Part shown: one piece after another, positions 9,904 to 54,278 of the stretch | Layout of the letters: the number at the start of each line of letters is the position of its first letter | How positions within the stretch are numbered: position 1 is the stretch's first letter | Source of the DNA: Nibricoccus aquaticus | Lineage (GTDB): Bacteria > Verrucomicrobiota > Verrucomicrobiia > Opitutales > Opitutaceae | DNA length: 64,000 nt | Reading direction: 5' to 3' | Assembly (NCBI RefSeq): GCF_002310495.1 | Contig: NZ_CP023344.1 | Span: forward strand, 3,799,501-3,863,500 | The notes under the pieces: model-generated | What the model saw: only the letters and a program-made list of their open reading frames with translations | Databases searched by the model: none | What the model was told of the DNA's origin: nothing | Made by a program: the position numbers and the translations under genes

Positions 9904-9922
9904 TCGACTAGACAGTGAACCG

Positions 9923-11398: not shown

Positions 11399-11866
11399 AT
11401 GAAAACCTCATCATCGAACACTCAAGTTCCTCAACGCACCGAGTCCTTTAATTCGCCTCATCGGGAAACTCCGGCCGAAGCGCGCCAGCCGCAGCGGCCT
11501 CAATCGATTGAACAGGCTGCACCGATGGCAGGTGCTGGAGGATCAAGCGACTCGAAGGTTTCGCCTCCTCGTACGCGCACTGAGCAGATGCCGCGCACTC
11601 AAGAGCAGATTAAAACGGGCTCGAAGCAGGATGTGCGCGAGGAGGTAGAGCATGAAGAGATCGCGCGCCGTGCGCACGAGCTCTGGGAGCAGGACGGACG
11701 GCAGGACGGCCGCGATCAAGAGCATTGGATCGAGGCGGAAAAGCAGCTGCGGGGATCGGCTCCTTCTAGAGGCCCGGCTGATTTCGAACGAGGCGACGCA
11801 CATGCACAGGCTAGGGCGATCAAGGCGTCGGCTGAAAAACGCGCGAATGGACAGACGCGGAACTGA
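11399..11866 (+). CDS. DUF2934 domain protein
   Basis: This is a small hydrophilic protein of 155 residues. The first 75 residues are low-complexity, rich in proline, glutamine, serine and threonine, and look disordered. The DUF2934 motif follows at about residues 88-115, with RAHELWEQDGRQDGRDQEHW and then IEAEKQL. The function of DUF2934 is unknown. The motif is common in proteobacteria, planctomycetes and verrucomicrobia, usually in short cytoplasmic proteins. The gene stands alone, divergent from the RNA methyltransferase, and a terminator-like hairpin lies about 130 bases after it. Confidence 0.75.
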   Translation: MKTSSSNTQVPQRTESFNSPHRETPAEARQPQRPQSIEQAAPMAGAGGSSDSKVSPPRTRTEQMPRTQEQIKTGSKQDVREEVEHEEIARRAHELWEQDGRQDGRDQEHWIEAEKQLRGSAPSRGPADFERGDAHAQARAIKASAEKRANGQTRN

Positions 11867-11997
11867 TCAAAACGTGAGCGTCTGTTGCGGGGTTCATCCG
11901 TTTGGTTGAGGTCTTCCGCGATTTGGGGCGCAAAGGCCTTACGCGAGGGGAAGCCTTACCTGCATTGAGACGCTGCGTGAGGTCGGCAGTGTTGTGG

Positions 11998-12031
11998 AAT
12001 CCCGGTCGCTAGAAGCGGCTGGGATTTTTTG
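11998..12031 (+). terminator. Probable rho-independent terminator
   Basis: An imperfect stem pairs TCCCGGTCGCT with AGCGGCTGGGA around a short AGA loop and is followed by TTTTTT. It ends the transcript of the DUF2934 gene. The rest of the 282-base gap up to the next gene shows no other clear feature. Confidence 0.6.
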
Positions 12032-12148
12032 TGAGGCAGATTAGGCGGGCTGGGGTGGCGCGGGAGTTTTTCGACTGAATGCCGGCGCACGGAGGGTTGT
12101 GTTGCAAACGGCTGGTGCGTGGTGGCGGGCGGTGATTAGCTGTGCGCC

Positions 12149-12841
12149 ATGTTTAAGGAGCGAACACCTCGGTGGGTTTTGATGGGAGCGTTTTTGCTCA
12201 CGCTGGGAGCGGGGGCGGTGAATGCGATCGGGTTTCTTGGCGTGCATCACCAGGGGATCTCGCATTTGACAGGGACGATTTCGCTGGTGAGCACGCGGGT
12301 GGCGGCGGCGAATTGGGAGGGGGCGGTGGCGGCGGGGTTGATTGTGGGGAGTTTTTTCTTCGGCTCGTTTTTGAGCGCGGTGATCATCCGGCAAAACACG
12401 CTGCACATGGGGCGGCGGTATGGCGTGGTGCTGGTGATGGAGTCGGCGTTGTTGTTTGGTGCGGTGTATTTGTTTGAGGGAGGGACGGTGGCGGGGGCTT
12501 ATCTGGCGTCGATGGCGTGCGGGTTACAGAATGCGATGGCGACGAGCTACAGCGGGGCGGTGATCCGGAGCACACACATGACGGGCATCGTGACGGATAT
12601 CGGGATCGCGTGCGGGCACTGGGTGCGGGGGCATCCGGTGGACTGGTTTCGGATGCGGCTGTATGGGGTGTTACTCGGGGGATTCGCGCTGGGAGGAGTG
12701 GCGGGGGCGGCGGGGTATGCGCGGATCGGGTACCGGACGCTGGTGTTTCCGGCGGTGCTCAGCGGGGTGAGCGGGCTGGGGTACGCGACATATAAGCACT
12801 GGCAGCGGATGAAGCACCGCGCTGGGAGCGCGGTGCAGTGA
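12149..12841 (+). CDS. YoaK/DUF1275 family membrane protein
   Basis: This is a polytopic inner-membrane protein of the DUF1275 (YoaK) family, 230 residues with about six hydrophobic segments. The family features AGAVNAIGFL near the start, the HLTGTISLV segment, ACGLQNAMATSYSGAVIRSTHMTG and the final membrane hairpin are all present. Members are presumed transporters, but the substrate is unknown. It is convergent with ruvC across a 7-nt repeat array and has no evident operon partner. Confidence 0.85.
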   Translation: MFKERTPRWVLMGAFLLTLGAGAVNAIGFLGVHHQGISHLTGTISLVSTRVAAANWEGAVAAGLIVGSFFFGSFLSAVIIRQNTLHMGRRYGVVLVMESALLFGAVYLFEGGTVAGAYLASMACGLQNAMATSYSGAVIRSTHMTGIVTDIGIACGHWVRGHPVDWFRMRLYGVLLGGFALGGVAGAAGYARIGYRTLVFPAVLSGVSGLGYATYKHWQRMKHRAGSAVQ

Positions 12842-12863
12842 CCCGTGAGTTCAGACGGACGAG

Positions 12864-12905
12864 TAACGCTCAACGTTTATCTTTTAACGCTGAACGCTCA
12901 ATGGA
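12864..12905. repeat. 7-nt array TAACGCT
   Basis: Six successive 7-nt units of TAACGCT type, including CAACGTT, TATCTTT and GAACGCT, fill the space between the convergent YoaK and ruvC genes. The same word recurs at about 13755 and 14720. Confidence 0.8.
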
Positions 12906-12910
12906 CGGAG

Positions 12911-13537
12911 CTACTCGCGCCAGGTGAACGCGTGGCAGAGGGCGACGCCGGCGGCGTCGGCTTCGTCGAAGGCGAGGGGGCGGCCGTGGCCCAGCATGCT
13001 CATGACGGTGCGGGCCATCTGCTCTTTGCTGGCGCGGCCGGCGCCGACGACGGCTTGTTTCACGCGGAGGGGGGCGTATTCGAAAATCGGTTTCTCGTGG
13101 AGGGCGGCGGCGGCGATGGCGGCTCCCCGGGCGGCACCGAGGATCTGGGCGGTCTGGAAGTTTTGAACGAAGATGGTCTGTTCGAGGGCGACGTGGCGGA
13201 TGTCCTGGCCGACGACGAAGGCGGTGACGGCGCGGTGGATCTCGGCGAGGGCGACGGACATGGGCTCGCGGGCGGGGACTTTGACCGTGAGGCAGCGCAG
13301 GAGGATGGGCTGGCGGCCGGGGGTGAATTCGATGAGAGCGAGGCCGGTGCCGCGGAGGCTGGGGTCGATGCCGAGGACGCGGCCGGAGAAGGGGGCGCGG
13401 GTGAGGGAGAGCGAGGCGGTGGCTTTAAGGGTGAGGTGCTTGAGGGACGCGGTGGCGGTGAGCGTCGCGGTGGAGGCGGCGGTGATTTTGCCGGAGAGTT
13501 TGGCGGCCCAGAGCTGGCGGACGTTTTGGCGGGGCAT
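12911..13537 (-). CDS. ruvC: Holliday junction resolvase RuvC
   Basis: RuvC cuts Holliday junctions during recombination and repair. The four catalytic acids are seen as D58 in [12 protein letters not shown]119 in ALEQ, and D191 and D194 in [13 protein letters not shown], matching the D, E, D, D set of the E. coli enzyme. The core from residue 53 to the end is normal for the family. A 50-residue N-terminal extension, rich in threonine, alanine and serine, precedes the core. It could be real or reflect a downstream start, and no clear ribosome site helps to choose. ruvA and ruvB are not adjacent. Confidence 0.88.
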
Positions 13538-13641
13538 GGTCGGAGAACGGGCGGAAGGGAGGCGAAGAGAGAAGGGTGAAGGGGGAACGGAGGGAGGCGG
13601 ACAGAGGAGGCGGAAGGAGAGAAGAAGAGACGGAATTTTTT

Positions 13642-13672
13642 AACCACTGATGGGCACTGAGGGACACTGATG
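13642..13672. repeat. 8-10-nt array (CACTGATG type)
   Basis: Three units of about nine bases built on CACTGA lie in the gap between the TSUP transporter and ruvC. A single copy of the same AACCACTGATGG word occurs at 55276-55287. Confidence 0.65.
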
Positions 13673-13697
13673 CCGGAGGGGGAGACGGAAACGGAGT

Positions 13698-13727
13698 TGG
13701 GACAGGATGGACAGGATTTACAGGAAG
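13698..13727. repeat. 9-10-nt array (ACAGGAT type)
   Basis: Three units built on ACAGGAT follow one another upstream of ruvC in a gap of 245 bases that holds only repeats and G-rich sequence. Confidence 0.65.
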
Positions 13728-13754
13728 GGGCGCGGGGGCGGAACGGAGGGGGCG

Positions 13755-13775
13755 TTTAATGCTGAACGTTCGATG
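13755..13775. repeat. Three 7-nt units of the TAACGCT family
   Basis: Three 7-nt units (TTTAATG, CTGAACG, TTCGATG) resemble in word and period the array at 12864-12905. They lie immediately downstream of the TSUP gene. Confidence 0.55.
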
Positions 13776-13782
13776 AGGCGGA

Positions 13783-14577
13783 TCAGGGGAGGATCATGTG
13801 GAGGCCGGAGAGGGCGCTGAGGGTGAGGGCGAGGTTTTCGAAGAGGCGTTGGTTGACGCGGGGGAGGACGGCGCGGCCGGCGAAGGCGCCGAGGAGGACG
13901 GCGGGGGCGAGGAGGAGGTTGAAGGTGGCGGAGTCGGTCGTGATGAGGCCGAGGTCGACCATGAAGGGGACTTTGAACCAGTTTAAGATCATGAAGAAGA
14001 CGGCGGCGGTGCCGACGAATTCCAGTTTGGGGAGGCGCATGGCGAGGAGATAGATGGCCATGAGGGGGCCGGCGGCGTTGGCGATGAGGGTGGTGAAGCC
14101 GGCGAGGATGCCCATCGTCGCGGCGAACCAGAGTTCGTGGTCGGGGGCGGAGGGTGGGAGTGCCGGGGAATCGGATACGGCGGGCGCAGAGGACGGTGGC
14201 GGGCGTTTTGAGCTGGAGCGGCGGTGGAGGTGGAGGGCGACCATCGCGAGGATGATGGTGCCGACGAGGAGGCGGGCCTGGCGGTCGTCGATGCGGCCCA
14301 TCGCGAACCAGCCGAGAAGGACGCCGGCGGCGGTGAAGGGGAAAAGTTTCCAGAGGAATTTCCACTGGATGTGGCGGCGGTAGGCACCGACAGCGACGAG
14401 GTCACCGACGATGAGGAGCGGGAGGATGAGGCCGGAGACTTGTTTGGTGTGGCCGGGAAAAATCTGTGTGAAGAGAGCGACGGCGAGCAGGCTGAGGCCG
14501 CCGATGCCGGTTTTGGAGAAACCGATGATGAGGGCGGCGAGGCCGGCGAGGAGCCATTGCCAGGGGACGAGGGACAT
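13783..14577 (-). CDS. TSUP (TauE/SafE) family anion exporter
   Basis: This is an inner-membrane protein of the TauE/SafE (DUF81, TSUP) family, 264 residues with about eight hydrophobic segments. The family's paired motifs are visible in GLAALIIGFSKTGIGGLSLLAV near the N-terminus and GILAGFTTLIANAAGPLMAIYLLA in the second half, a sign of the internal duplication. Members move sulfite, sulfonates or similar organic anions, but the substrate is not determined here. A Ser/Pro-rich cytoplasmic loop of about 30 residues separates the halves. It is flanked by repeats on both sides and is probably transcribed alone. Confidence 0.85.
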   Translation of the reverse strand: MSLVPWQWLLAGLAALIIGFSKTGIGGLSLLAVALFTQIFPGHTKQVSGLILPLLIVGDLVAVGAYRRHIQWKFLWKLFPFTAAGVLLGWFAMGRIDDRQARLLVGTIILAMVALHLHRRSSSKRPPPSSAPAVSDSPALPPSAPDHELWFAATMGILAGFTTLIANAAGPLMAIYLLAMRLPKLEFVGTAAVFFMILNWFKVPFMVDLGLITTDSATFNLLLAPAVLLGAFAGRAVLPRVNQRLFENLALTLSALSGLHMILP

Positions 14578-14604
14578 TGTTTGCGGAAGGGCTGGGAGGG
14601 TCTC

Positions 14605-14629
14605 GCGAAGGAGGCGAAGGGGGCGAAGG
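14605..14629. repeat. 9-nt tandem array GCGAAGGNG
   Basis: Two full 9-nt units and one partial unit of GCGAAGGAG or GCGAAGGGG lie in the gap upstream of the TSUP gene. The period is exact. Confidence 0.7.
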
Positions 14630-14682
14630 TTTTGGAGGACGATGTTTTGGTGAAGAGGAGGCGGGTGAGGCGGCGGGAGTTT

Positions 14683-14703
14683 GTAGTTGGGAATTGGCAG
14701 TTG
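14683..14703. repeat. 7-nt array GTAGTTG
   Basis: Three 7-nt units (GTAGTTG, GGAATTG, GCAGTTG) share the TTG ending and lie between recF and the TSUP gene. Confidence 0.6.
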
Positions 14704-14719
14704 GGCGGGAGGAGTGGGG

Positions 14720-14747
14720 AACGCTTAACTTTTAACGCTCAATCGGG
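14720..14747. repeat. 7-nt array AACGCTT/AACGCTC
   Basis: Four 7-nt units each beginning with AA (AACGCTT, AACTTTT, AACGCTC, AATCGGG) lie just after the recF stop. They are a third copy of the TAACGCT family. Confidence 0.7.
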
Positions 14748-14769
14748 GGAGGCGGGACGGGCTGTGGTT

Positions 14770-15843
14770 CTAGGAGGGAGCGAAGGAGCCGGTGGTGACG
14801 TTGAAGATTTGCCAGGTGCCGAGGCTGGCGTCGGGGAGGGTGGTGCCGGTGGCGATGACCTGGCGATTTTCGCCGAGGGCGGTCCAGAAGCGGCGGCGGC
14901 GGGCGGGGTCGAGTTCGCCGAGGACGTCGTCGGCGAGGAGGAGCGGTTGCACGCCGGTGCGGGTGGCGAGGTACTCGACCTCGGCGAGGCGGAGGGCGAG
15001 GGCGAGGGAGCGTTGCTGGCCTTCGGAGGCGAAGTCGCGTGCCGGTTTCCCGGATACGGTGAGTTCGCAGTCGTCGCGGTGGGGGCCGGCGAGGGTGGTC
15101 TTCATGACGAGGTCGCGGGGGCGATTCTTCGCGAAGAGGGCGGACCAGGCGGGGGCGTCGAGGGGAGCGGTGTCGGGCGAGTAGGTGAGGGCGGCGGGTT
15201 CGGCGGAGTCGGCGAGGCGGTTGTAGGTTTCGGCGACGTGGGTGCTGAGGGTGGCGATACCGGCGGCGCGGAGGCTGGTGAGCGAGGCGGCGGCGGTGGC
15301 GAGGGGGTGTTCGAAGGCGAGGAGTTCGGAGGCGGAGGCGGTGCGTTTGAGGAGGGCGTTACGGCCGGCGAGGGCGCGGTGGTAGGCTTGAAGGGTGGAG
15401 AAGTAAGTGGCGTCGGTCGCGGCGAGGGCGAGGTCGAGCCAGCGGCGGCGGGCGCCGGGGGAGCCGCGGACGAGGAGTTGATCTTGAGAGGAGAAAACGA
15501 CGGCGGGGAAGTGGCCGAGGTAATCGGCGAGGCGGGGGACGCGTTCGCCGTCGCAGGTGACTTCCTTGCCGCCGGGACGGAGTTTGATGAGGACGCGGGT
15601 GTCGCCGCGGCGCTCGTGAGTGAGCTCGCAGGCGATGGCGGCTTCGGGCTGGCCGTGGGCGATGAGGGCGCGGTTGTCGGCGGTGCGGAAGGAGCGAAGG
15701 GCGAAGAGAAAGCCGGCGGCTTCGAGGAGGTTGGTTTTTCCCTGGGCGTTGGAGCCGACGAAGAAGTGGCGGTCGCCGGTGAGCGCGAGGTCGGCGAAGG
15801 CGACGTTGCGGAAATGCTGGAGGGTGAGGCGGCGCAGGCGCAT
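14770..15843 (-). CDS. recF: DNA replication and repair protein RecF
   Basis: RecF is an SMC-like ATPase that loads RecA at single-strand gaps through RecFOR. Walker A is GSNAQGKTN at residues 30-38. The ABC signature region is [16 protein letters not shown] and Walker B is [12 protein letters not shown]. The length of 357 residues is standard. The ATG overlaps the stop of the cysteine desulfurase gene by one base (TGATG), so the two are probably translated from one mRNA. The usual dnaA-dnaN context is absent, as is common outside gammaproteobacteria. Confidence 0.95.
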
Positions 15844-16991
15844 CAGGGTTTCACCACGTTGGCGGGGGGGATGAGTTCGGTGGCGACTTCGGTGAGGGCG
15901 GCGAGGAGGGCGTGCCAGTCGGACTCGGTGGTGTCCCAGCCGGAGCTGATGCGGATGACGCGGCGGGACTCGTCGATGGAGAGGCCGAGGGCGGTGAGGA
16001 CGTGGGACGGGCCTGCTTTACCGGTGGCGCAGGCGGAGCCGGTGGAGACTTGGAAGCCGCGTTTATCGAGCTTGGCGACCCAGCGGGCGTTTTCGACGTG
16101 GGGGAGGAGGAGCGAGATGGTGTTCCAGAGTCGGTCGGCATCCGGGCAGAGGATACGGGAGCCGGTGATGGCGGAGACGATGGCGCGTTCGAAGTGGTTG
16201 CGGAGATGGAGGCGGGATTCTTCGAGGAAGACTTTGGTTTGTTCGGCGTCGGCGAGGGCAGCGGCGAGGGCGCAGATGGAGGGGACGTCCTCGGTGCCGG
16301 CGCGGTGGGCGTTTTCTTGGGAGCCGCCGGACTGGGCGGAGAAGGACTCGGATTGGTCGGGGAAGACGAGGAGGCCGGTGGCTTTGGGTCCGCCGAATTT
16401 ATGAGCCGAGGCGATGAGCCAGCCGGTGGCGCCGAGGCCGGAGGCGGGGAGTTTGCCGAGCCATTGAGTGGCGTCGCAGAGGAATGGAATGTGTCGGGCG
16501 GCGCAGAGTGCGGCGATCTCGCGCCAGGGCTGGAGGACGCCGGTTTCGTTATTGGCGGCCATGACGGCGAGGGCGGAGGGAGGTGTGTCGGAAGAGAAAA
16601 GCGTGGCGAGGGCGTCGAGGCGGATGAGGCCGGCGGGGGTGAGGGGGAGGAAGTCGATGCGGTCGGGGAAGTGGCGGCGGGCGGCTTCGAGGACGGCGGG
16701 GTGTTCGGTGGGGTTGAGGGCGATGCGGGCGGCGGGCGGGAGGGTGCGTGCCCAGTGATCGAATACGGTGTGGGCGCCTTCGGTGGCGCCGGAGTTGAAG
16801 AGGAGGCGGGCGGGGGGGCAGCCGAGGAACTCGGCGGTGCGTTCGCGGGCGGCGTCGAGGCGGAGGCGGGCACGGGCGCCGTCGCGGGTGGGGCTGGAGG
16901 GGTTGTGCCAGGCTTCGTCGGAGAGGCGCAGCCAGGTCTCGCGCGCGATGGGCGCGAGGGGGGCGGTGGCGTTGTGGTCGAAGTAAGGCAT
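15843..16991 (-). CDS. Cysteine desulfurase, NifS/IscS class
   Basis: This PLP-dependent enzyme removes sulfur from cysteine as a persulfide for Fe-S clusters or thio-cofactors. The PLP lysine is K198 in [10 protein letters not shown], and the cofactor-stacking histidine is in NPTEHP. The catalytic cysteine is C321 in [17 protein letters not shown], a class I loop. The start at [12 protein letters not shown] matches the family. Thirteen upstream codons come partly from a 7-nt repeat and were excluded. At 382 residues it is full length. No scaffold gene such as iscU lies nearby. The gene is coupled to recF. Confidence 0.93.
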
Positions 16992-32266: not shown

Positions 32267-32608
32267 ATGAGTCCCACCGTTTATTACATCCTCCACGTCT
32301 TCTCGTTGCTGGTCCTGACCGGCTACACGTTTTACGCGTTTGCCGCGCCGGCGGAGACCCGCAAAAAAATCCTGATGATCACGGGCATCGCGAGTCTCGT
32401 GATGCTGGTGAGCGGGTTTGGGCTCATTTCGAAAGTGTACGCCAATCACTTCAGCGGCTGGATGATCGTGAAGATGGTGTGCTGGCTCGGCCTCTCCGCG
32501 CTGGCGGGCATCGGCTACCGCCGCCGCGAAAAGGCCAAGGTGTTTGCCTCGGTCGCGATCGCGCTGGTCGCCGTCGCGGTGTACATGGTTTACGCGAAAC
32601 CGTTTTGA
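32267..32608 (+). CDS. Small four-helix membrane protein
   Basis: This is an inner-membrane protein of 113 residues with four hydrophobic segments, at about 7-27, 38-58, 66-84 and 91-109, separated by short charged loops. It recalls small integral membrane proteins of the SirB type, but I do not recognise the family with certainty. It follows the 6S RNA and precedes the polymerase gene by only eight bases, so it may be cotranscribed with it. Function unknown. Confidence 0.75.
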   Translation: MSPTVYYILHVFSLLVLTGYTFYAFAAPAETRKKILMITGIASLVMLVSGFGLISKVYANHFSGWMIVKMVCWLGLSALAGIGYRRREKAKVFASVAIALVAVAVYMVYAKPF

Positions 32609-32616
32609 TCGAGGCT

Positions 32617-34821
32617 ATGGAAACGTCCTCGTCTCCGATCTGCGGTCTGTGGATCGATGACGAGGGATTGGCGCACGTCTCGGTCGCGAAGGCCGACGGC
32701 TCACGCGAGGAACGCGTAGAAACGCTGCGGCCGTTCACGTGGTTTTCCGAACCGCCTGCCGATGTGTCGGTGGCGGGAGTCGAGACGGAGCAGCTGAAAG
32801 GCGAGGGCGTTTACAGCCATCTCGCTCACGCGGAAACGCTGGCGGCGCACGAGAACTTTTATGCGCTGCTCAAGACGGCCGGTGTGTCGGCGGACACGAT
32901 CAGGCCGCTGGAAAACGCGTTTTTACTTCAGCGGCGTGAGCGGCTTTTCCGCGAGTTGAGTTTCGCGCAGGTCCGGCGCTGCCAGTTCGACATCGAAACG
33001 GGCTCCAGCGAGGAAGGCCGGTTTAGCGATGCGAGCAAAGCGGGCGACCGTGTGCTGGCGATCGGGCTGCAATTCGGCGCGCGCCAGCGGCTGCTCGTGC
33101 TCGAAGCGATGACCGATGAGGCGGAGAAAAAGCTGTTGCTGGAGTTCAATGCCGTGCTGCTGGCTGAAGATCCGGACGTCATCGAGGGGCACAATCTGTT
33201 CAAGTTCGACTTCGACTATCTGCGGCAGCGGGCAAAGCGGCTCAAGGTGGCGTGCGCGTGGGGGCGTTTTGGGCAGAAGGCGACGTTTCGCAACAGCCGC
33301 TTGAAAGTCGCGGAGCGCTGGGTGGATTTCCCGCGTTGCGATCTGCCGGGGCGGACCGTGATCGACACGTATCTGCTCGTGCAGATGTACGACATCACGA
33401 CGCGTGAGATGACGTCGTACGGGCTGAAAGACGTGGCGGTTTATTTCGGGATCACGAGCGAGGACGCGGCGGAGAGTGGTGGGCGCACGTATCTCGCGGG
33501 CGACAAGATCCACGCGGCGTTCCAACAGGATCGGGAAGCGTTTCTGGCTTATCTGGCGGACGATTTGCGGGAGACGAAAGGGATAGCGGATCTGCTGCTG
33601 CCGACGTATTTCGAGCAGACGAAGACGTTTCCTATCCTGCTTCAGGACGCGACGCTTCGCGGCACGACGGCCAAGATCGACCTGCTGTTTTTGGAGGAGT
33701 ATTACCATGCGCGGCAGGCGTGTCCGTCACCGGCGGAGGTCGCGCCGTTCGAGGGCGGGTACACGCGGAGTTTCAAGGAGGGCGTCTTCAAGCACGTGCT
33801 GCACTTCGACGTGGCGTCGCTCTACCCGAGCCTGTTGCTCCAGATCGCGCGCAATCCGCGCAACGATTCGCTGGGCGTGTTTATCCCGCTTCTGAGCCGG
33901 TTGAGGGAGTACCGGTTGAAGTTTAAGCAGCTGGCCCGCACGGCGGAGACCGAGGAGTTGCGCGCGGAGTACCAGGCGCGTCAGACCAATTTCAAAATCC
34001 TGATCAACTCGTTCTACGGCTATCTCGGTTTCGCGAATGCGCGTTTCGGCGACGGTGAACTCGCCGCCGAAGTGACGAGACGCGGGCGGGAGCTGTTGCA
34101 GGCGTTGATCGACGAGTTCGCCCGTCACGGATGCACGATCCTGGAAGCGGATACGGACGGCATTTATCTGTCGTCGGAGGAATTTTTCGACCGGCCGGAG
34201 GAATTGCTGGCAAAGGTGGAGGCGGTGCTGCCGAAGGGAATCGAGCTGGAATACGACGGGCGGTACACGGCGATGTTTTGCTACAAGGCGAAGAACTACG
34301 CGCTCTATGATGGCACCAAGCTCACGATCCGCGGTTCGGCGCTGCGCTCGCGTGGTATCGAGCCGTACTTGAAGAAGATCAGCGACCGGTTGATCCGGTT
34401 TCTGGTCGGGGCGGAGACAGAATCGCCGCTCGTGCTGGTGGAAGATTTTCGACGTCGCATCGCGGAGCGCTCGGCGTCGGTGGCAGAACTGGCGAAGTCG
34501 GAAGTGCTCAGTTCAAATCCCGATGCGTATGAGCGTGCCATGAACGAAGGTGGTAAACCGCGTCGGGCCTCCGCTGAAGCCGCGCTGCAACTCACGCCGC
34601 GTCCGCGCATGGGCGAGCGCGTGGCCTACTACATCACGGCGAAGGCCAAGGGGAAAACCAGCGACTGGCAGCGGGCGAAACCGGTGGCGTTATACGATGC
34701 TGCGAATGCGCCGTACGACCCGCAGTACTACCTCGATAAACTGGATGACTGGATCGAGCGGTATGGCGTTTTCCTGGGCGTTAGCGCGCCGAAGGAGCAA
34801 GGCGAGTTTTCGCTGGAGTGA
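32617..34821 (+). CDS. Family B DNA polymerase, compact form
   Basis: This is a DNA-directed DNA polymerase of family B (Pol II/archaeal type), 734 residues. The 3'-5' exonuclease domain is intact by motif: Exo I D125 and E127 in FDIETGS, Exo II in EGHNLFKFDFDYL, and Exo III in YLADDLRET. Polymerase motif A is D398 in DVASLYPSL, motif B lies around NFKILINSFYGYLGF, and motif C is D512 and D514 in ADTDGIYL. The ATG at METSSSPI was chosen because the upstream part of the long frame is a shadow of the membrane-protein gene. It is shorter than E. coli Pol II (783 residues). The role is presumably repair or translesion synthesis. Confidence 0.92.
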   Translation: METSSSPICGLWIDDEGLAHVSVAKADGSREERVETLRPFTWFSEPPADVSVAGVETEQLKGEGVYSHLAHAETLAAHENFYALLKTAGVSADTIRPLENAFLLQRRERLFRELSFAQVRRCQFDIETGSSEEGRFSDASKAGDRVLAIGLQFGARQRLLVLEAMTDEAEKKLLLEFNAVLLAEDPDVIEGHNLFKFDFDYLRQRAKRLKVACAWGRFGQKATFRNSRLKVAERWVDFPRCDLPGRTVIDTYLLVQMYDITTREMTSYGLKDVAVYFGITSEDAAESGGRTYLAGDKIHAAFQQDREAFLAYLADDLRETKGIADLLLPTYFEQTKTFPILLQDATLRGTTAKIDLLFLEEYYHARQACPSPAEVAPFEGGYTRSFKEGVFKHVLHFDVASLYPSLLLQIARNPRNDSLGVFIPLLSRLREYRLKFKQLARTAETEELRAEYQARQTNFKILINSFYGYLGFANARFGDGELAAEVTRRGRELLQALIDEFARHGCTILEADTDGIYLSSEEFFDRPEELLAKVEAVLPKGIELEYDGRYTAMFCYKAKNYALYDGTKLTIRGSALRSRGIEPYLKKISDRLIRFLVGAETESPLVLVEDFRRRIAERSASVAELAKSEVLSSNPDAYERAMNEGGKPRRASAEAALQLTPRPRMGERVAYYITAKAKGKTSDWQRAKPVALYDAANAPYDPQYYLDKLDDWIERYGVFLGVSAPKEQGEFSLE

Positions 34822-34870: not shown

Positions 34871-36004
34871 TCAGAGCGCCTGCTCGGTGACGGCGTCGAA
34901 GAGGTGCGCTTTGCTCACGTCGAAGCACACTTTGACTGATTGATTCGCTTCATAGTGAGCGGTGGGGAGCACGCGGGCGATGAAGGCGGTCGCGCCGGTG
35001 TGAAGATAAAGATAGGTCTCGGAGCCCATGGGTTCGGAGACCTCGACTTTGACCTCGGCGGTGGCGGCCGGATTCACGGTGGTGGCGGTAAGCGCGTCGT
35101 CGACATTTTCGGGGCGGATGCCGAGGACGACGGGTTTTTCGATGTGAGCGGCGGCTTTGGCCGCGAGGCGCTGATCCAGGGCGATGGAGACAGCGGACGA
35201 GGGCGCGGCGGGGTTTTCTTCGATGAAGACGAGTTTGTCGCCCGCGCGGCGGATAGTGCCTTTGAAGAGGTTCATCTGCGGGCTGCCGATGAAGCCGGCG
35301 ACGAAGAGATTTTTGGGGTGGTTGTAGAGCTCAAGAGGCTCGGCGACCTGCATGATATTACCGTCTTTCATGACACAGATGCGGTCGCCCATGGTCATGG
35401 CCTCGGTCTGGTCGTGGGTGACGTAAATCATCGTGGCTCCGAGGCGGGCGTGGAGTTTCGAGATCTCGGTGCGGGTGGAGACGCGCATCTTGGCGTCGAG
35501 GTTGGAGAGGGGCTCGTCGAAGAGAAAAACCTTGGGCTTGCGAACGATGGCGCGACCCACGGCGACGCGCTGGCGCTGGCCGCCGGAGAGGGCCTTGGGC
35601 TTGCGGTCGAGGTAGGCGTCGAGGCCGAGCATGGCGGAGGCTTCGCGGACGCGGGCGTCGATTTCGGCTTTGGGGAATTTCCGGAGCTTCAGGCCGAAGG
35701 CCATGTTTTCGTACACGCTCATGTGGGGGTAGAGCGCGTAGTTTTGGAAAACCATGGCGATGTCGCGGTCGCGGGGAAGGACGTCATTCACGATCTTGCC
35801 GTCGATGGAGATGGTGCCGCCGGAGATCTCTTCGAGGCCGGCGATCATGCGCAGGGTGGTGGACTTTCCGCAGCCGGAAGGGCCGACCAGCACCATGAAT
35901 TCGCGATCCTCGATGGTGAGGTTGATGCTATTTACCGCAGTAACGCCGGGGCCGTTCTTTTCGGGGTAGGTTTTGACGAGGGTCTCGATGGTGACTTTGG
36001 CCAT
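34871..36004 (-). CDS. Sugar ABC transporter ATPase, MalK/MsmK/UgpC type
   Basis: This is the ATP-binding subunit of a carbohydrate ABC importer, 377 residues. Walker A is GPSGCGKST, the signature [16 protein letters not shown], Walker [17 protein letters not shown], and the switch histidine is in [11 protein letters not shown]-terminal TOBE domain includes [12 protein letters not shown]. Permease and binding-protein genes are absent, which is typical of the shared ATPases that serve several sugar importers. The start at MAKVTIETL fits the family; an upstream in-frame ATG would add 23 basic residues and was not used. It is divergent from the RHH gene. Confidence 0.92.
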
Positions 36005-36131
36005 GAGTGGGGCGCGGCGCGGGTTGCGGGGAAGGGGACGGCGAAAAATCCGGCGCGTATCCAGTCTAGTCAACCGTGGAGATACTGCAAAAATCGTGTT
36101 GCCCCACGCGGGCGCACGGGCATTTGTGTAA

Positions 36132-36147
36132 TGTCTTCACCAAGACA
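36132..36147. promoter_or_regulatory. Palindrome upstream of the tandem RHH gene
   Basis: TGTCTT and AAGACA form a perfect inverted repeat around a four-base centre, 35 bases before the RHH start and partly overlapping a possible minus-10 TGTAAT at 36127-36132. It is a reasonable autoregulatory operator candidate. That use is inference. Confidence 0.5.
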
Positions 36148-36182
36148 CGTAACCCAACGGTCGAGAGAAAAATCAACCAGCC

Positions 36183-36500
36183 ATGGCTAAGAAAAAAACC
36201 AACGCCCCTGCCCCCCTCACGTTTGATCTGCCGGTCTCCCTGATCGGAAAACTCGGTTCGAACCAGAAAAAACTTGGTCTGAAATCCGCCAGCGAAGTCG
36301 TTCGTCTGGCCATCTCTGAATTCAACTTCGAGAAGTACGAGGCCTCCGCCGAAGAGCACCGCCAGATTTCGGTACGTCTGCCTGCCGACATCAAAACCAA
36401 GCTCACCAAGGTCGCCAAAAAGAAGAGCGTCAGCGTCGGCGAACTCCTCCGCGTCGCCATCGACTCGCTGGAAGCCAAGAAGGTCGCCAAGAAAAAGTAA
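36183..36500 (+). CDS. Tandem ribbon-helix-helix-like DNA-binding protein
   Basis: This is a small basic protein of 105 residues with lysine-rich ends (MAKKK and KVAKKK). Two similar segments, at about residues 12-50 and 60-98, each look like a ribbon-helix-helix unit: a short beta strand (LTFDLPVSLI and RQISVRLPADI), a helix, and a second helix starting near a serine (SASEVVRLAISEF and SVGELLRVAIDSL). RHH regulators normally have one unit and dimerise, so this could be a single-chain pseudo-dimer. A palindrome lies in its promoter region and a strong terminator follows. I do not know a named homologue. The product may be a nucleoid or abundant DNA-binding protein. Confidence 0.7.
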   Translation: MAKKKTNAPAPLTFDLPVSLIGKLGSNQKKLGLKSASEVVRLAISEFNFEKYEASAEEHRQISVRLPADIKTKLTKVAKKKSVSVGELLRVAIDSLEAKKVAKKK

Positions 36501-36574
36501 TCTCTCCCGGGGTTACCTACGCGAGCCGGAGCCGCTCGCTGGCAGCCAGTCTGCCAAACCGGCTCACACTTTTC

Positions 36575-36610
36575 GCAAGCGCGCCCGCACACGGCGCGCT
36601 TGCCCTTTTT
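36575..36610 (+). terminator. Strong rho-independent terminator
   Basis: An 11-bp perfect stem (GCAAGCGCGCC with GGCGCGCTTGC), a 7-base loop and a run of five T end the RHH transcript. Confidence 0.93.
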
Positions 36611-36611
36611 A

Positions 36612-36640
36612 GGGCGCGGACTTTTAGTCGGCGCCCTTTT
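36612..36640 (+). terminator. Hairpin with T run directly before the aminotransferase start
   Basis: GGGCGC pairs with GCGCCC, with an inner GAC/GTC pairing, followed by TTTT two bases before the ATG of the aminotransferase. It may be a second terminator or an attenuator. It leaves no room for a Shine-Dalgarno site. Confidence 0.65.
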
Positions 36641-36642
36641 GC

Positions 36643-37836
36643 ATGAGCACCTCTCCACGGCCTCTCTCGTCCTGGGCACAGAATATCTCTCCTTCGCCAA
36701 CCCTCGCGGTTGATGCGAAGGCTAAAGCACTCCTCGCCGCTGGCGAGGACGTTTTGAATTTTGCCGCCGGTGAACCCGATTTCGACACGCCTGAGCACAT
36801 CAAGGAGGCGTGCATCGCCGCTTTGAAGAGCGGCAAAACCAAGTACGCGCCCACGCCCGGCATCGAGCCGCTGCGCCAGGCCGTCGCCGAGCGCTACGCC
36901 GCCGAGTACGGTTTGAAGGTCGCATCCTCGCAGGTCGTGGTTTCCCCGGGTGGGAAGTTTTCCTGCTACCTCGCGATCATGGCAACGTGTTCGCCCGGCG
37001 ATGAAGTGATCATTCCCGCACCGTACTGGGTGAGCTATCCCGAGATGGTGAAGCTCGCGGGTGCGACGCCGAAGGTCGTCCTTGCCGACGACACGACCGG
37101 CTTCCTCCTCACACCTGCGATGCTCGAAGCCGCGATCACGCCGAAGACGAAACTCGTCGTGCTCAACTCGCCGTCGAATCCCTCCGGGGCCGTTTATTCG
37201 CGCGCGCAGCTCGAGGCGCTCGTGGCCGTCGCGGTGAAGCACAATCTCTACATCCTCTCTGACGAGATGTATGAGCATCTCGTGTACGACGGTGCCACGC
37301 CGACCTGCGTCGCCGCGTTGTCGAAGGAAGCCGAAGCGCGCACCATCATCGTCGCTGGTTTCTCGAAGACCTACGCGATGACCGGCTGGCGTCTCGGCAC
37401 GCTCGTCGCGCCCGCGCCCATCGCCAAGGCCTGCGCGGAAATCCAGAGCCAGCAATCGAGCAACGCCACGACCTTTGCCCAGTACGGCGCGCTCGCCGCA
37501 CTCAAGGAAAAGGAAAAGACAGCGGCCGCGCTCAAGGAAATGATGACGGCCTTCGACCGTCGCCGGAAGTTTCTCCACGCCGAGCTCATCAAGATCCCGG
37601 GTGTCACCTGCGTGCTTTCGCAGGGCGCGTTTTATCTTTTCCCGAACATCTCCAGCTTCGGTCTGAAGGATCAGGAGTTCTGCGCGAAGTTGCTGGAGCA
37701 GGAAAAAGTCGCCGCCGTGTTCGGCAGCGCGTTCGGCGCGGAAGGTTATTTGCGCCTCAGCTACGCGACGAGCGACGAGATCCTGGCCAAGGGCGTGGCC
37801 CGGCTCGCGAAGTTCTGTGCTTCGCTGAAGAAGTAA
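36643..37836 (+). CDS. Pyridoxal-phosphate aspartate aminotransferase, class I
   Basis: This class I aminotransferase of 397 residues is closest in pattern to aspartate/prephenate-type enzymes of subgroup I-gamma. The PLP lysine is K242 in [15 protein letters not shown]. Other landmarks are [43 protein letters not shown] and the carboxylate-binding arginine in YLRLSYATS. It would interconvert aspartate and oxaloacetate, possibly also acting on prephenate. The start codon stands right after a hairpin with a T run, so a leaderless or attenuated transcript is possible. A good terminator follows. Confidence 0.92.
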
Positions 37837-48320: not shown

Positions 48321-51300
48321 CTACTTGATCTCCAGCGCGATGCTCTCGGAGTGGCTGTTGAACTCGGGGGCGTACATGCACTGGATCTCGGCGATGCCGC
48401 TTTGGTAGCGGCCGCGGAGTTGCACGCGGGTCGAGTATTCGAAGACGTACGTGCCCTTCGGTAGGTAATCGATGAAGAAGTGCGATGCGGTGTCGCGCGT
48501 GCTTTCGTAGTAACCGAGTCCGTCTTGGTAGCGGTAGCGGCTGAGGACGTTGACGGGTTCGGTGCCGCTGCCGCGTTGGTCCTTCAAGTGGACGAACTCC
48601 ATGTCGCGGTCGGTGCGGAGTTCGATGCGGACGACGAGTTCGTCGCCGACGGCGAGCGCGCCGGAGACGGGTTTGAGGACGGGCCCCTTGGAGGTGTTTT
48701 CTTTGAGCCAGAGGGTTTTCTTGAGCGTAAGCGGTGTGCCTTCGTGCGGCGTGATTTTCGCGATGTCTTCGAGGTACTGCCAGTGGACGCTGCCCCAGCT
48801 GACGCCGTCGTCGGTTTTGCGGACGGTGATTTCGCCTTGGGTGGGTTTGATCTCCGACGCGGCGAAAGTCTTTTCGTAGAAGCCGGTGCCGGCTTCTACT
48901 TTCTCGGGCTTGATCGTTTCGCCGCCGAGGGAGACTTCGACAAGCGCGTCGCTGGAGAGCAGGTTGTTGCCGCGAACGAGGAGGCCGTAGATGGCGTCGG
49001 CGGTGGCTTTGGTGGTTTTCCAGTTTTGGGTCTGCTTTTGTTTCAGGAGCCAGACTTGGAGGTCTTCGACGGCCTGTTTGTCGTCGGCGATTTCGGAGAA
49101 CGCTTCGATCATGAGCGCCTGGGTTTCGATGGGGGCGCGGTACCACCACCAGCTGAGTTCGGTGTCGCGCCAGAACATGCCAAGTTCTTCGTTGGAGACG
49201 CTGCGCTCCCTGAGTGACTTCACGATGGCGAGTGCGGTGGCTTTGTCGTCGAAGCGTTGGAGCGCGAGGGCGAGGTGGGCCTGGCTCTGGCGGCTGTCGA
49301 CGCGGAGCCAGAATTTGCGCGACTGCTGGAGGAAGAAGTCGGTGGCGGCTTTGTGGGCGGCGGCAATGGGGCGGTCTTTGAGGAAGAAGCTGCGGCCGTA
49401 GAGATAGAGCGCGTCGGTGTAGCCGGGGACGTACTGATCGGGGTGCGGCGACTTGAGAATGTCGGCGTGACGCTTGGTCATCCACGCGTCGAGGCCGGCG
49501 AGGGATTTGATCGCGGGGGCGGTGTCGAGTTCGACGCCGAGGTGACGCAGGCGGCCGAAGCCGGTCGTGATGTAGAGGCTGATGTACTCGCTCGGGCGGC
49601 CGCCGGGGAACCACGGCCAGAGGCCTTCGCTGAGCTGGCGCTCCGAGAGCGTGCGGAGCTGGCGGGCGGATTCTTCGTCGAGGCGGTTGGCATCGAAAAG
49701 CAGGCCGACGTTGCGGCGGGCTTCGCTCTCGGATTTGGCCTGACGGAGCCAGGGCGTTTCTTCGAGGAGGACGGATTTGAGGTTCTGGTTTTTCTCCAGC
49801 GGTGAATCGAGCGCGGGCGTGTTTTTCCAGAGATCGAAGACGCGGCGGATCTTCGGATCGGACGCGGCGATGTGGCGGGCGAGGGCGTTGGCGTAGAGTC
49901 GGTTGAAGACCTGTTCGCTGCACTCGTACGGGTACTCCATCAAGTAGGGCAGGGCCATCACGGCGTACCAGGCGGGCTGCGAGGTCATCTGCACGGTGAG
50001 CGATTGATGCTTGAGCGTGTCGGAGGAACCGGAGTTGAGGAGTTTCGGGAAGGTGAACTGCTTGGTGGATTTTCCGCGGATGGGGAGCGGGAGCGACTCG
50101 GTGACGAGTATCCGGCGGCTGAGGACGGGCAGGAAACCGTCCTCGCCGTCGCTGAGCGTGGTGGAGGCGGCGACGGCTTTGTAGGTCAGGAAGCCGAGGC
50201 CGTCGGGGACGGAGATGCGCCAGGAGTAGCTGCGCGATTGTTTGGCGGGGACGTCGAAGAGCTGCTCGGGTTTTTGATTGGCGAGCGCGGCATCGACAGA
50301 GGCTTGCGTGGCGGCGTCGGTGAAGGTGAGGCGGACGGTGCCGGTCTGCGGCTGGTCGCTCTGGTTGGTGACCTTGACGGTGAATTCGAGTGTGTCGCCT
50401 TCGCGGAGGAAGCGCGGGGGATTGGGCTCTACCATGAGGTCTTTGGCGGTTACGACTTTTTCGGTGATGAAGCCGGAGCGGAGTTGTTTGTCGTGAGCGA
50501 AGCCGAGGAGTTTCCACTCGGTGAGGGCCTCGGGCATGGTGAAGACCATCTTCACGACACCGTCGTCGCCCGAGAGGAGTTGCGGGAAGAAGAAGGCGGT
50601 TTCGTTGAGGTTGGTGCGGACGGTGATTTTGGAGAGGTTGGGGGGAGGTGGGGGAGATTCGGGTGTAACCAAGCCGCCACCAGATTGGCCCAGAACGGTG
50701 TAGCTCTCGGACGCTACCTCTTTTGATTCAGCAAGCATGGCTGCAGGGGCTGGAGCCATAGCACGGTTCTGTTTTCTGAGAGCGCCGCCCCGGCGATCTG
50801 ACGACACGGAGAATGCGTGCAGCTCGATCACGTCTCCATCCATTGCCGATTGGAGAATTGTATGGGGGAAGGATCGGTAGCTCCACGCGAAGGAACGGTT
50901 CTCGGGATGTTTCCAACCGTAGATCGTGTTGAAGTTGCGGAGCTCGTTTTGGAATTCGATGCGGGTGCGGCTGAACTCGGTACGGAAGACACCGAAGGTC
51001 TGCGGCCAGTTGTGGGGCTGGTATTGGTCGAGCGAGACGTCGTAGAGGGCGGCGACCATTTCGGCGGAGGCGCGGCTGGCGTCGGGACCGGAGATGGTGG
51101 CGGTCCAGGTTTCTTTTTCGCCGGGAAGGAGTTTGGAGCGGAAGCGGTCCCACTTCACGGTGAGTTGTTTGTTGGACCAGGGGACGTTGATGACGCGCTC
51201 GTGGGTGTAGGCGCGGTTTTCGCGGATGGAGGTGACGCAGAGGGTGAAGCCGCCGCGCATGGCTTCGGCGACGGGCAACTCGATGAGCGACTGGGTGCGG

Positions 51301-54278
51301 TCGGCGGGGGTCCAGTAGCTCTTGATGGGTTTGCCGGCGCACTCGAGTTCGACGAAGGCGCGGCCTTGATCGTAGCCGGTGCCCCAGAGCGCGGTGAAGT
51401 TTTCGCCGGGTTCGACGGACCACGTGGGAGAGCCGAGGTGATCGGGGATCTTGATGCTGAAGCGGGCGGCGGCGGGATCGAGGACTTGAACGGTGTGGCG
51501 GGCGGTGACGGTTTTGCCGAAGCGGTCTTTGGTCTCGACGGAGGCGCGGTAGATGCCGGGCTTCAGCGTGACGGGGATTTTGGCGAGGCCTGCGGACTTG
51601 GCGTCGGTGGAGAAGGCTTCGCTGGCGACGCGTTCGCCGAGTTCCCAGGAGTCGGGATTGGTGGGATCGACCGGGGGCGTGTCGTTGCCGAAGCGCCACC
51701 AGGAGCGCTCCTGTTGCAGAGACGCGCGCTGAACTTTCTCGGGCTGCTTGAGCGCGTGCAGAGTGAGGGTTCCGGTGGCGGATTGCGGGTCGCTGTCGAG
51801 GGACGTGGTGGCGATGGCGAGTTCGACGGGTTTGTCGGAGGTCTGCCAGTCGTCGGCGGTGAGGGTGGCTTGAAGGGCGGTGTAGCCGCTGCGAACGGAG
51901 CGGTTGCTGGAGCGGGTTTCGCCGGTGGTGTCGGTGATATCGGCGTGAATGTTGAAAACGAATACGGGCTCGTTCTTCTCGGGGACGGCGCGGTCGGGCG
52001 CGGCGGTGAAATCGATCTTGAAGGTGCCGTCGGCGTCGGTGATGGCGGTGCCGTGGGCGATGGATTTGGTGGCGGGCGGCTGGAACCACCAGCACCAGTA
52101 GGGAAGCTGTACGAGGCGTTCGACGCGCCATTTCACTTTTGCGCCGCCGATGCTGGCGCCGGTGTAGGCGGTGGCTTTGCCGGTGACGGTGACGGGCGCA
52201 TCGAGTTTCGCGGCTTCTGCGGGGGCATCGAGGGCTACCTGGAATTTGGGACGTTTGTACTCCTCGACGCTGAAGCCGGTACTGCCGTTGCCGTCGCTGA
52301 CCTGAATGCTCATGCGGCCGGCGAGGCGGTCGCGGGGAGCGGTGAAGACGCCGCTGAAGGAGCCGTAGTCGTTGGTCGTGTGGGTGGCGCGGGCGATCTC
52401 CTGACCGTTGGGGTCTTTGAAGAGGACGGTGACTTTGCGGCGGGCGACCGCGTCGTATTTGGCGGCGTTCTGATCGTAGCGGATGGAGACGCCTTTGTAG
52501 GAGACGGTCTGGCCCGGGCGGTAGATGGCGCGGTCGGTGAAGAAGACGGTCTGGGTCTGAGCGCGTACGCGGTCGTGGTAGCCGTAAGCGTAAACTTCCT
52601 GGCCGCTGGCGACGGCGTGGCCGGCGTGTTCGGCGAGGATGACGAGGGGATTGTTTTCGGTGGAGAACGTGAACTGGCCGTTGGCGTCGGTCGTTTTGGG
52701 CGAGACGGGTTTCATCGCGCCGTCGTTGTTGCGTTTCCAAAGGCGTATCGTGGCTCCTGAGACGGGCTCGCCGGTGAGGGCGTTGAGGACTAGGCCGGAA
52801 TGTTCGGTGCGGTCGTGGCGAAGGCGGAGGACGAGGGCGAGGTCGCTGACCCAGGCTGTGGCGATGCTGATCTGGTTATCGGTCGAGTGGAAGGTCGGGT
52901 CGTAGCTGGCGACTATTGCGTAGAAGCCGGGCCTGAGTGTGGCGGGGGCGGAGAGCGATTCGGTGCGCTCCTTGAAGTCGGTGGTCGCGGGAAGTTCGGC
53001 GCTCCACTGGAGGGCAGGCGGGGTGGCGAGAAGTTGGACGTAGTCGGTGTCGCGACGGCCGTAGTTCCAGCGGGACTTGGTGACGTGGTCGTTGAAATCG
53101 ATGGGGATGGCGCGGAAGTAAACCTGGGTGACGTTGCGGTAGGTCACGTCGAGCGTGGGCCAGGGCGCGTTCCAGACGGACTCAGTTTTCAGCTGGGCGG
53201 AAGGGGCTTCGATTTCCTGGATGAGGTTGAAGCACTGGGCCGCGCCGGCGCTTTTCGGAAAGGCGTCGAGGCCGCGCTGGGCGAGATCGCGGGCTTTGGC
53301 GGGTTCGTCGTCGGCGTTGAGTTGTGTGGCGAGCGCGGCGATGGCGCGGGAAGAGATTTCGTGGCGGTTGGTTTCTTCGATGAAACGCTCGAGGGCGGCT
53401 TTGTAGCGGTCGGTCTTGGTTTCGCCGGTGGCGATGTTGCTGGCGTAGCTGAGGCGGGCGAGGTCGGCGTCGAGGAAGGCGGAGCGGTCTTTGTCCTTCG
53501 CGTGGAAGCGGAGCAGCGATTGGTAGATCGAGATGGCTTTGTGCTTCGGGGAAAAGCCGTCGGCGGGCGGGAGCTGCCAGGCGAGGAATTCGGCGGTGGT
53601 GCCGAGGATCGGGGAGGTGGCGTCGATCTCGAATTCGTTTTCGGAGATGCGGGCGGCTTGTTCGCCGGACTGGTAGAACTGGAGGGCTTCGTACGCGAGG
53701 AAGTCGAAGAGCGTGGGGCGGTAGGTGTCGGGGGCGGTGCCGGGCTGGAGGAGGTCGTCGTATTCGGAGATCGGAGTCGCCTGGAGGAGTTTGTCGCTGG
53801 TGAGGGCGGCGGTGAAATGGCGGTCGATCTCGGCGAGGATGCGGGCGAGATCCCATGTCTGAAGGTCAGCACCCGGGGCTTCGGCGGTGGCGGTGCGTTG
53901 CTGGATGCGCCAGCGGTTTTGCTGGAAGTACTGCCAATACCAGTGTGCGAGGACGCCCTGCATCATGGGCTTCATGGGCTCGGGGGCCTTGGCGAGTTCG
54001 GCTTCGAGGCGTGCGATTTTTTCCTCGGCTTTGCCGCCTTGGATTTCGCCTTCGAGGGCGATTTTGCGGCCGATGGCTTTGATGGCTTCGGCGTAGGCTT
54101 TTTCGGCGAGGGCAGCGGAGATGATGGGGTCGAGGCGCTCGATGGCGGTTTTAGGGAGGCCTTGGGCGGCGGCTTCGTCGACTTGTTTCCATTCCTTGTC
54201 ACGTGGGGCGGCGGGAAGCATGGCCGCGAAAACGAGGGCGATGAGGAAGGCGAGTGAAGCGCGTGGGTTCAGGTTCAT
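48321..54278 (-). CDS. Giant bacterial alpha-2-macroglobulin
   Basis: This is an exported alpha-2-macroglobulin of 1985 residues, far larger than the E. coli protein (about 1650). After a signal peptide at 1-24 comes a helical region to about 330. Several MG-type beta domains follow, including a carboxypeptidase-regulatory-like segment (SGLVLNALTGEPVSGATIR) near 500. The stretch NETAFFFPQLLSGDDGVVKMVF near 1220 marks the A2M core. The thioester motif is CSEQ with C1453 in YPYECSEQVFNR, followed by the helical thioester domain and a receptor-binding-like end. Such proteins trap foreign proteases. There is no lipobox, and the PBP1C gene that accompanies the E. coli form is absent. Confidence 0.92.
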   Translation of the reverse strand: MNLNPRASLAFLIALVFAAMLPAAPRDKEWKQVDEAAAQGLPKTAIERLDPIISAALAEKAYAEAIKAIGRKIALEGEIQGGKAEEKIARLEAELAKAPEPMKPMMQGVLAHWYWQYFQQNRWRIQQRTATAEAPGADLQTWDLARILAEIDRHFTAALTSDKLLQATPISEYDDLLQPGTAPDTYRPTLFDFLAYEALQFYQSGEQAARISENEFEIDATSPILGTTAEFLAWQLPPADGFSPKHKAISIYQSLLRFHAKDKDRSAFLDADLARLSYASNIATGETKTDRYKAALERFIEETNRHEISSRAIAALATQLNADDEPAKARDLAQRGLDAFPKSAGAAQCFNLIQEIEAPSAQLKTESVWNAPWPTLDVTYRNVTQVYFRAIPIDFNDHVTKSRWNYGRRDTDYVQLLATPPALQWSAELPATTDFKERTESLSAPATLRPGFYAIVASYDPTFHSTDNQISIATAWVSDLALVLRLRHDRTEHSGLVLNALTGEPVSGATIRLWKRNNDGAMKPVSPKTTDANGQFTFSTENNPLVILAEHAGHAVASGQEVYAYGYHDRVRAQTQTVFFTDRAIYRPGQTVSYKGVSIRYDQNAAKYDAVARRKVTVLFKDPNGQEIARATHTTNDYGSFSGVFTAPRDRLAGRMSIQVSDGNGSTGFSVEEYKRPKFQVALDAPAEAAKLDAPVTVTGKATAYTGASIGGAKVKWRVERLVQLPYWCWWFQPPATKSIAHGTAITDADGTFKIDFTAAPDRAVPEKNEPVFVFNIHADITDTTGETRSSNRSVRSGYTALQATLTADDWQTSDKPVELAIATTSLDSDPQSATGTLTLHALKQPEKVQRASLQQERSWWRFGNDTPPVDPTNPDSWELGERVASEAFSTDAKSAGLAKIPVTLKPGIYRASVETKDRFGKTVTARHTVQVLDPAAARFSIKIPDHLGSPTWSVEPGENFTALWGTGYDQGRAFVELECAGKPIKSYWTPADRTQSLIELPVAEAMRGGFTLCVTSIRENRAYTHERVINVPWSNKQLTVKWDRFRSKLLPGEKETWTATISGPDASRASAEMVAALYDVSLDQYQPHNWPQTFGVFRTEFSRTRIEFQNELRNFNTIYGWKHPENRSFAWSYRSFPHTILQSAMDGDVIELHAFSVSSDRRGGALRKQNRAMAPAPAAMLAESKEVASESYTVLGQSGGGLVTPESPPPPPNLSKITVRTNLNETAFFFPQLLSGDDGVVKMVFTMPEALTEWKLLGFAHDKQLRSGFITEKVVTAKDLMVEPNPPRFLREGDTLEFTVKVTNQSDQPQTGTVRLTFTDAATQASVDAALANQKPEQLFDVPAKQSRSYSWRISVPDGLGFLTYKAVAASTTLSDGEDGFLPVLSRRILVTESLPLPIRGKSTKQFTFPKLLNSGSSDTLKHQSLTVQMTSQPAWYAVMALPYLMEYPYECSEQVFNRLYANALARHIAASDPKIRRVFDLWKNTPALDSPLEKNQNLKSVLLEETPWLRQAKSESEARRNVGLLFDANRLDEESARQLRTLSERQLSEGLWPWFPGGRPSEYISLYITTGFGRLRHLGVELDTAPAIKSLAGLDAWMTKRHADILKSPHPDQYVPGYTDALYLYGRSFFLKDRPIAAAHKAATDFFLQQSRKFWLRVDSRQSQAHLALALQRFDDKATALAIVKSLRERSVSNEELGMFWRDTELSWWWYRAPIETQALMIEAFSEIADDKQAVEDLQVWLLKQKQTQNWKTTKATADAIYGLLVRGNNLLSSDALVEVSLGGETIKPEKVEAGTGFYEKTFAASEIKPTQGEITVRKTDDGVSWGSVHWQYLEDIAKITPHEGTPLTLKKTLWLKENTSKGPVLKPVSGALAVGDELVVRIELRTDRDMEFVHLKDQRGSGTEPVNVLSRYRYQDGLGYYESTRDTASHFFIDYLPKGTYVFEYSTRVQLRGRYQSGIAEIQCMYAPEFNSHSESIALEIK

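Follow-up and report, generated by a model that had tools for sequence, protein, structure and literature searches.

What is the role of a chromosomally encoded protein that carries two ribbon-helix-helix (RHH) units and a lysine-rich end in a single chain of 105 residues? The question is raised by a gene at positions 36183-36500 (+ strand) of a 64,000-nucleotide stretch of the Nibricoccus aquaticus genome, here called the window. The gene is present in one copy in this genome, and its product has a net charge of +12. A preliminary description of the locus proposed a single-chain pseudo-dimer acting as a tightly regulated, stand-alone and possibly abundant regulator, with an operator-like palindrome before the gene and a strong terminator behind it. 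The analysis reported here favors, with a probability of about one half, a different role: a lineage-specific nucleoid-associated protein, which would be abundant, of low specificity and architectural, would work beside HU and would not be a local repressor.

The tandem RHH-like architecture and the lysine-rich end of the preliminary description were borne out by the open reading frame, the Pfam RHH_1 match and the fold matches. RHH_1 (PF01402) scores 32.1 bits against a curated cut-off of 20.5, with its best stretch in unit 2 (residues 61-97; 36363-36473, + strand). Two stretches of the protein match at a limiting E value of 10, of which unit 2 alone passes E 0.01, and at this threshold RHH_1 is present in all 70 scanned members (the window protein and 69 relatives). 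The assignment of unit 1 (residues 11-47; 36213-36323, + strand) depends on the structure model and its fold matches, to which conservation can be added; its likeness to unit 2 in a profile-profile comparison is weak (P 0.0014, hhalign probability 7%, 28% identity over 40 columns). Both the profile match and the twofold succession of extended segment, helix and helix place the protein in the RHH_1/CopG-like superfamily. Between the units lies a linker (residues 48-60; 36324-36362, + strand), and 17 residues separate R41 from H59 in 80/80 named homologues, a constancy that would follow from a need to hold the units in a set arrangement. A basic C-terminal tail of eight residues, five of them lysine, follows (36474-36497, + strand). 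Searches of Pfam, NCBIfam and PDB sequences returned no characterized homolog, in agreement with the preliminary description.

In the AlphaFold2 monomer models of the window protein (pLDDT 84.8, pTM 0.47) and of a Coraliomargarita core (pLDDT 90.7, pTM 0.50), helix-helix pairs follow extended segments. The structure alignments comprised 69 and 70 of the 80 named loci plus the window protein. Unit 1 is modeled as a strand, P11-L-T13-F-D15-L, followed by helices 18-31 and 36-46, and unit 2 as a strand, Q61-I-S63-V-R65-L, followed by helices 68-80 and 85-104, the last of which continues into the tail. When structures were aligned one domain at a time, the half containing unit 2 matched CopG, Arc, PutA, NikR and CdbA chains, and that containing unit 1 mainly NikR and MazE9, at Z scores of 3.8-6.9, where values below 8 may mean merely a common arrangement. 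A Foldseek search against the PDB found nothing at or below E 0.001, and whole-length matches to MatP and to a permuted single-chain Arc were set aside because of their large rmsd. The two RHH folds thus appear unit by unit, as helix pairs after extended segments, but the strands are unpaired in both low-pTM monomers, a weak test for a fold in which pairing would occur between units. Taken literally, this is the outcome that the preliminary description had named as refuting its proposal. Since neither model pairs the strands, the proposed one-chain pseudo-dimer is unproven.

RHH proteins are mostly transcription factors. The phage family phrog_876, a PHROG transcriptional repressor, matches across both halves of the protein at E 7.4e-9. 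Both points would suit a local transcription factor, either an autoregulated RHH repressor or a factor controlling the neighboring gene for the aminotransferase or the ABC transporter, or both, a reading that we nevertheless regard as unlikely on the evidence set out below. Viral relatives were absent from a single-protein scan sensitive to close relatives only, phage records gave no match at E 0.01 and a viral fold search gave none at E 0.001. The protein could also be a CopG/RHH antitoxin of a toxin-antitoxin module, given matches to CopG_antitoxin (E 0.002), BrnA and RelB. These fall below the curated cut-offs (19.3 against 28 bits, 25.5 against 60 and 16.2 against 50, respectively), and the genes found beside the window gene and beside many of its homologues encode an ABC ATPase and an aminotransferase, which makes an antitoxin highly improbable.

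Homologs spanning both units occur in 36 of 57 related genomes, and dN/dS is 0.01-0.13 for 14 hand-picked pairs of homologous cores, several with dS near saturation; the gene is therefore real. Conservation across the Opitutaceae, which the preliminary description had proposed to check, holds in 32 of the 37 own-family genomes of this set and in 27 of 30 in a wider class sample. Among the 20 remaining genomes of the 57, each from a different family of the order, four are positive. The search listed 39 matches, 30 of which became loci and alignment rows, and the gene is single-copy in 34 of the 36 genomes that bear it; genomes G020 and G024 have two and three tandem RHH gene matches, respectively. 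Five own-family genomes lack the gene (four without any match, one with weak partial matches only), although some of the genomes without it, here and in the other families, are incomplete. A profile search of 25 genomes, namely these five and the 20 from other families, found no extra full-length match and weak partial matches in one genome. The class sample was positive in 48/286 genomes in total; beside the 27 of the family these are 16 of the 22 from other families of the order, and five genomes outside the order whose matches were all weak and partial. In an overlapping phylum sample, the 37 positives among 288 genomes all lie within the order. The gene is thus restricted to one order, the Opitutales-type Verrucomicrobiota, is patchy beyond its own family and was presumably inherited vertically. 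Named relatives are mostly labeled Opitutaceae, Puniceicoccaceae, Pelagicoccus, Coraliomargarita or just Verrucomicrobia.

Across these homologues the two strands are nearly invariant and differ from each other. In all 30 homologues that were recovered independently of motif patterns, strand 1 has the form P-x-T-x-D/E and strand 2 the form Q-x-S-x-R; each of P11, T13, Q61, S63 and R65 is present in 30/30, and residue 15 is Asp in 29 and Glu in one. The 80 named loci (the best 80 of 83, retrieved with two peptide patterns, which favors members with those motifs) agree apart from T13, found in 78 and replaced by Ser in two, a count biased by the inclusion of HRQISVRL in the retrieval patterns. 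Among the distant loci L150-L155, of which the motif search read L150, L151 and L152 only, L152 has Ser instead of P11. We take the P-T-D/E and Q-S-R residues to face the DNA, and Q61, S63 and R65 to be Arc-like, as Q9, N11 and R13 are in Arc. D/E15 would lie on the side of strand 1 that faces the DNA, where it is unfavorable for a canonical RHH contact. Because the strands differ at nearly fixed DNA-facing positions, a symmetric operator is disfavored; a ribbon formed by pairing of the two units would be asymmetric and should not favor a perfect palindrome. Such strands are ill suited to the palindromic operator of a local repressor.

The palindrome itself is present and perfect, as the preliminary description had stated: TGTCTT-CACC-AAGACA lies at 36132-36147 (+ strand), 35 nt before the ATG. 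Its role as an operator was rejected, since it is not conserved upstream of the homologs and equally good inverted repeats are frequent in shuffled sequence. It is missing from all of the other 80 upstream stretches, each 110 nt long, leaving the window as 1/81, which tells against a local regulator, and the nearest relative, L076 (core 78% identical), retains AAGACA without TGTCTT. With perfect arms of at least 6 nt and a loop of at most 10 nt, a comparable inverted repeat arises in 635 of 2000 dinucleotide shuffles (32%) of the 179-nt upstream stretch, and in 68/2000 when the loop is exactly 4 nt. A genome-wide search, also suggested in the preliminary description, did not extend the palindrome beyond its own locus: the 4.73-Mb genome holds this single perfect copy and three further places at one mismatch. 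Inverted repeats are slightly in excess upstream of the family as a whole (30/81 regions against 19.7 in shuffles), a modest point for local regulation. The palindrome is probably a chance, at most a local, feature.

A different upstream element recurs in the family. TTT-N0-3-R-TTGC is found in 44/81 upstream regions (median distance to the ATG, 73 nt), compared with a mean of 2.9 and a largest count of 8 in shuffles; the pattern was framed after inspecting the same sequences, and the window copy, AAAATCGTGTTGCCC, does not fit it. This variant of the AT-run/TTGC element (36090-36104, + strand, with TTGCCC at 36099-36104) is read as a -35 region. The element may combine an A/T-rich upstream element with a -35 box; a sigma-70 scan found no consensus promoter. 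If AAAATCGTGTTGCCC is a -35 region, the start of transcription would fall close to the palindrome. The related ATTTTCGTTGC was rejected as a gene-specific operator: only two of the 30 loci read (L045 and L051) are a homologue's own upstream region, and the remaining loci lie in or near other ORFs. Exact matches to ATTTTCGTTGC occur at least once in 28 of 38 genomes (0-8 each, none in the window's genome), and 25 own-family genomes hold 41, against six for a reversed control, an excess that may be partly coding sequence (one frame reads I-F-V-A). As it lies mostly away from homologue upstream regions, it is read as a promoter element. An A/T run with CGTTGC is seen about 73 nt before the ATG of homologs such as L045 and L051; the exact 11-mer also occurs in L049, where it precedes an unrelated ORF of 484 aa by 58 nt, possibly a clade-specific promoter type.

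The neighborhood offers some support for a local role. A divergent MalK-type ABC ATPase gene (34871-36004, - strand) precedes the RHH gene, which is followed by the gene for a class I/II aminotransferase (36643-37836, + strand); both neighbors were identified by domain annotation and synteny. Counting loci with enough flank, the aminotransferase lies directly downstream in 49/69, the ABC ATPase upstream in 34/78 and both are present in 23/67. The position is common and neither neighbor is obligatory, which is consistent with the stand-alone gene of the preliminary description and argues against a purely local regulator, as gene order is broken in many homologs that retain the protein. The next-but-one gene upstream (32479-34821, + strand) encodes a family B DNA polymerase with an exonuclease domain (PF00136, PF03104). 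Elsewhere in the window, a gene at 48321-54278 (- strand) encodes a 1985-aa bacterial alpha-2-macroglobulin-like protein with MG2, A2M and bMG10 domains.

Between the RHH and aminotransferase genes, a terminator-like hairpin of 11 pairs followed by a T-rich stretch (36575-36603, + strand) agrees with the terminator of the preliminary description: it has the longest stem in a hairpin scan and the region 36501-36620 folds with z = -2.4, but the scan found three such sites against 2.2 in shuffles. With a purpose-made scanner, similar hairpins were found in 22/49 intergenic gaps, where shuffles predict 8.0; read-through into the aminotransferase gene may thus occur but would not be general. The proposed abundance is weakly supported by a codon adaptation index (CAI) of 0.68, within the range of a 21-gene reference set made up of 20 ribosomal protein genes and that of EF-G (0.55-0.85, median 0.72), all recognized by eye except S19. 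In a window ORF set chosen partly by CAI, 14 of the 49 other called ORFs score higher. Codon usage, in the ribosomal range but unexceptional, would allow high expression. At 6175-16991 (- strand), eight of ten called ORFs have a CAI above 0.75, exceeding the ribosomal median, which may reflect GC3 instead of expression.

The C-terminal tail of the family, basic in most of the homologues read, ranges from a few lysines to 255 residues of histone H1-like KKAA/APKK repeats. Among 71 complete members of the 80 named homologues (the other nine run off the end of a contig, in eight cases within the tail), the tail is at least 30 residues long in 28 and at least 90 in 20, the longest holding 112 Lys/Arg and two Asp/Glu. 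Composition is alike in short and long tails, with 46-47% Lys/Arg (228/499 residues in short tails, 1620/3478 in long ones) and 1-2% Asp/Glu, and the commonest words are KKAA, AAKK, AKKA and KAAK, with APKK also present. In at least one distant homologue, L152, the C-terminal end is acidic, not basic, a point against a nucleoid role. On a tree of 79 cores, from which the truncated loci L074 and L115 were left out, long tails require two changes, the alignment being short, the root arbitrary and the bootstrap not settled. Two close relatives, L125 and L126, have lysine/alanine tails of 255 and 76 residues, respectively, possibly owing to repeat-length variation or assembly error. The length of the protein or its tail is likewise reported to be variable in chlamydial Hc2 (PMC2848022).

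Long tails of this kind are unexpected in local repressors. As many relatives carry them, the protein may help to package the chromosome instead of acting as a switch for a single gene, and an architectural protein of the chromosome is a likelier reading than the tightly regulated regulator of the preliminary description. We infer that the two RHH units form an asymmetric DNA-binding ribbon, within one chain or between two chains, and that the basic core would grip DNA mainly via strand 2. The basic tail would neutralize the backbone, adding sequence-independent contacts, and in long-tailed species it would be expected to behave like other H1-like tails, by bridging or compacting DNA. A more specific proposal, made tentatively and with the balance slightly against it, is that of a single-chain asymmetric tandem-RHH clamp, forming its own class of nucleoid-associated proteins in Opitutales-type Verrucomicrobia, with an H1-like tail lengthened or shortened at least twice, between fewer than 10 and 255 residues. 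Such a clamp would have brought an H1-like tail to bacterial chromatin independently of HU tails and of Chlamydia Hc2.

Basic low-complexity tails bind polyanions generally, so the lysine tail could act on a polyanion other than DNA in an RNA-, polyphosphate- or ribosome-associated protein. The H1-like AlgP is described as affecting the spacing of polyphosphate granules (PMC9239181). Against such a role, to which we give little credence, RHH folds are DNA-binding domains and the Q-S-R of strand 2 is fixed in all 30 pattern-free homologs. Several observations also weigh against a nucleoid-associated protein. The window's own tail is just eight residues, and it is in relatives that H1-like tails are seen. 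Of 38 relatives, 37 have HU and the remaining genome is 67% complete; HU loss was accordingly rejected as an explanation, and there is no packaging gap to fill. The gaps within the family and in most other families would be unusual for an essential packaging protein, and the frequently kept aminotransferase neighbor leaves room for a local role.

By analogy, CdbA of the CdbA/CdbB system of Myxococcus xanthus is the nearest functional precedent for a nucleoid-associated role, DndE and TraY are the nearest architectures and HupB has the nearest tail. CdbA is an RHH protein whose homologs are reported in one order only and whose proposed role is to organize the chromosome; it differs in having one RHH per chain, forming tetramers and binding c-di-GMP, and a short C-terminal tail is mentioned (PMC7156744). 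Unit 2 aligns to CdbA (6sbw) with Z 5.9, rmsd 2.9 and 48 aligned residues, although a Z below 8 may signify a common arrangement, and CdbA is not among the PDB sequence matches of the window protein. DndE, which takes part in DNA phosphorothioation, likewise has two divergent RHH units in one polypeptide; its monomer is, per its authors, equivalent to a canonical dimer, and its divergent strands permit an asymmetric target (PMC10853773). In contrast to DndE, the genes flanking the tandem RHH gene are not Dnd genes, and no Dnd-named family is among the Pfam and NCBIfam matches of the window protein. TraY and EntFR of F-like plasmids also have two RHH domains per protein (PMC5102898), but they are proteins of plasmid conjugation regions, whereas the window gene is chromosomal and kept across an order.

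Hc2 and AlgP are not known to contain an RHH domain. They resemble the family in their lysine/alanine-rich tail or protein (PMC2848022; PMC9239181). Mycobacterial HupB is described as sharing PAKK/KAAK repeats with histone H1 and has a lysine/alanine-rich tail, attached to an HU domain (PMC2932737). Among the matches listed in the open-licence literature, none combines tandem RHH units with an H1-like tail.

If the protein is indeed a nucleoid-associated protein, then a chromatin protein in an order of bacteria common in the environment has so far escaped study. The family would also provide tails of naturally varying length on a constant DNA-binding core, a series in which the contribution of an H1-like tail to DNA compaction would be directly measurable.
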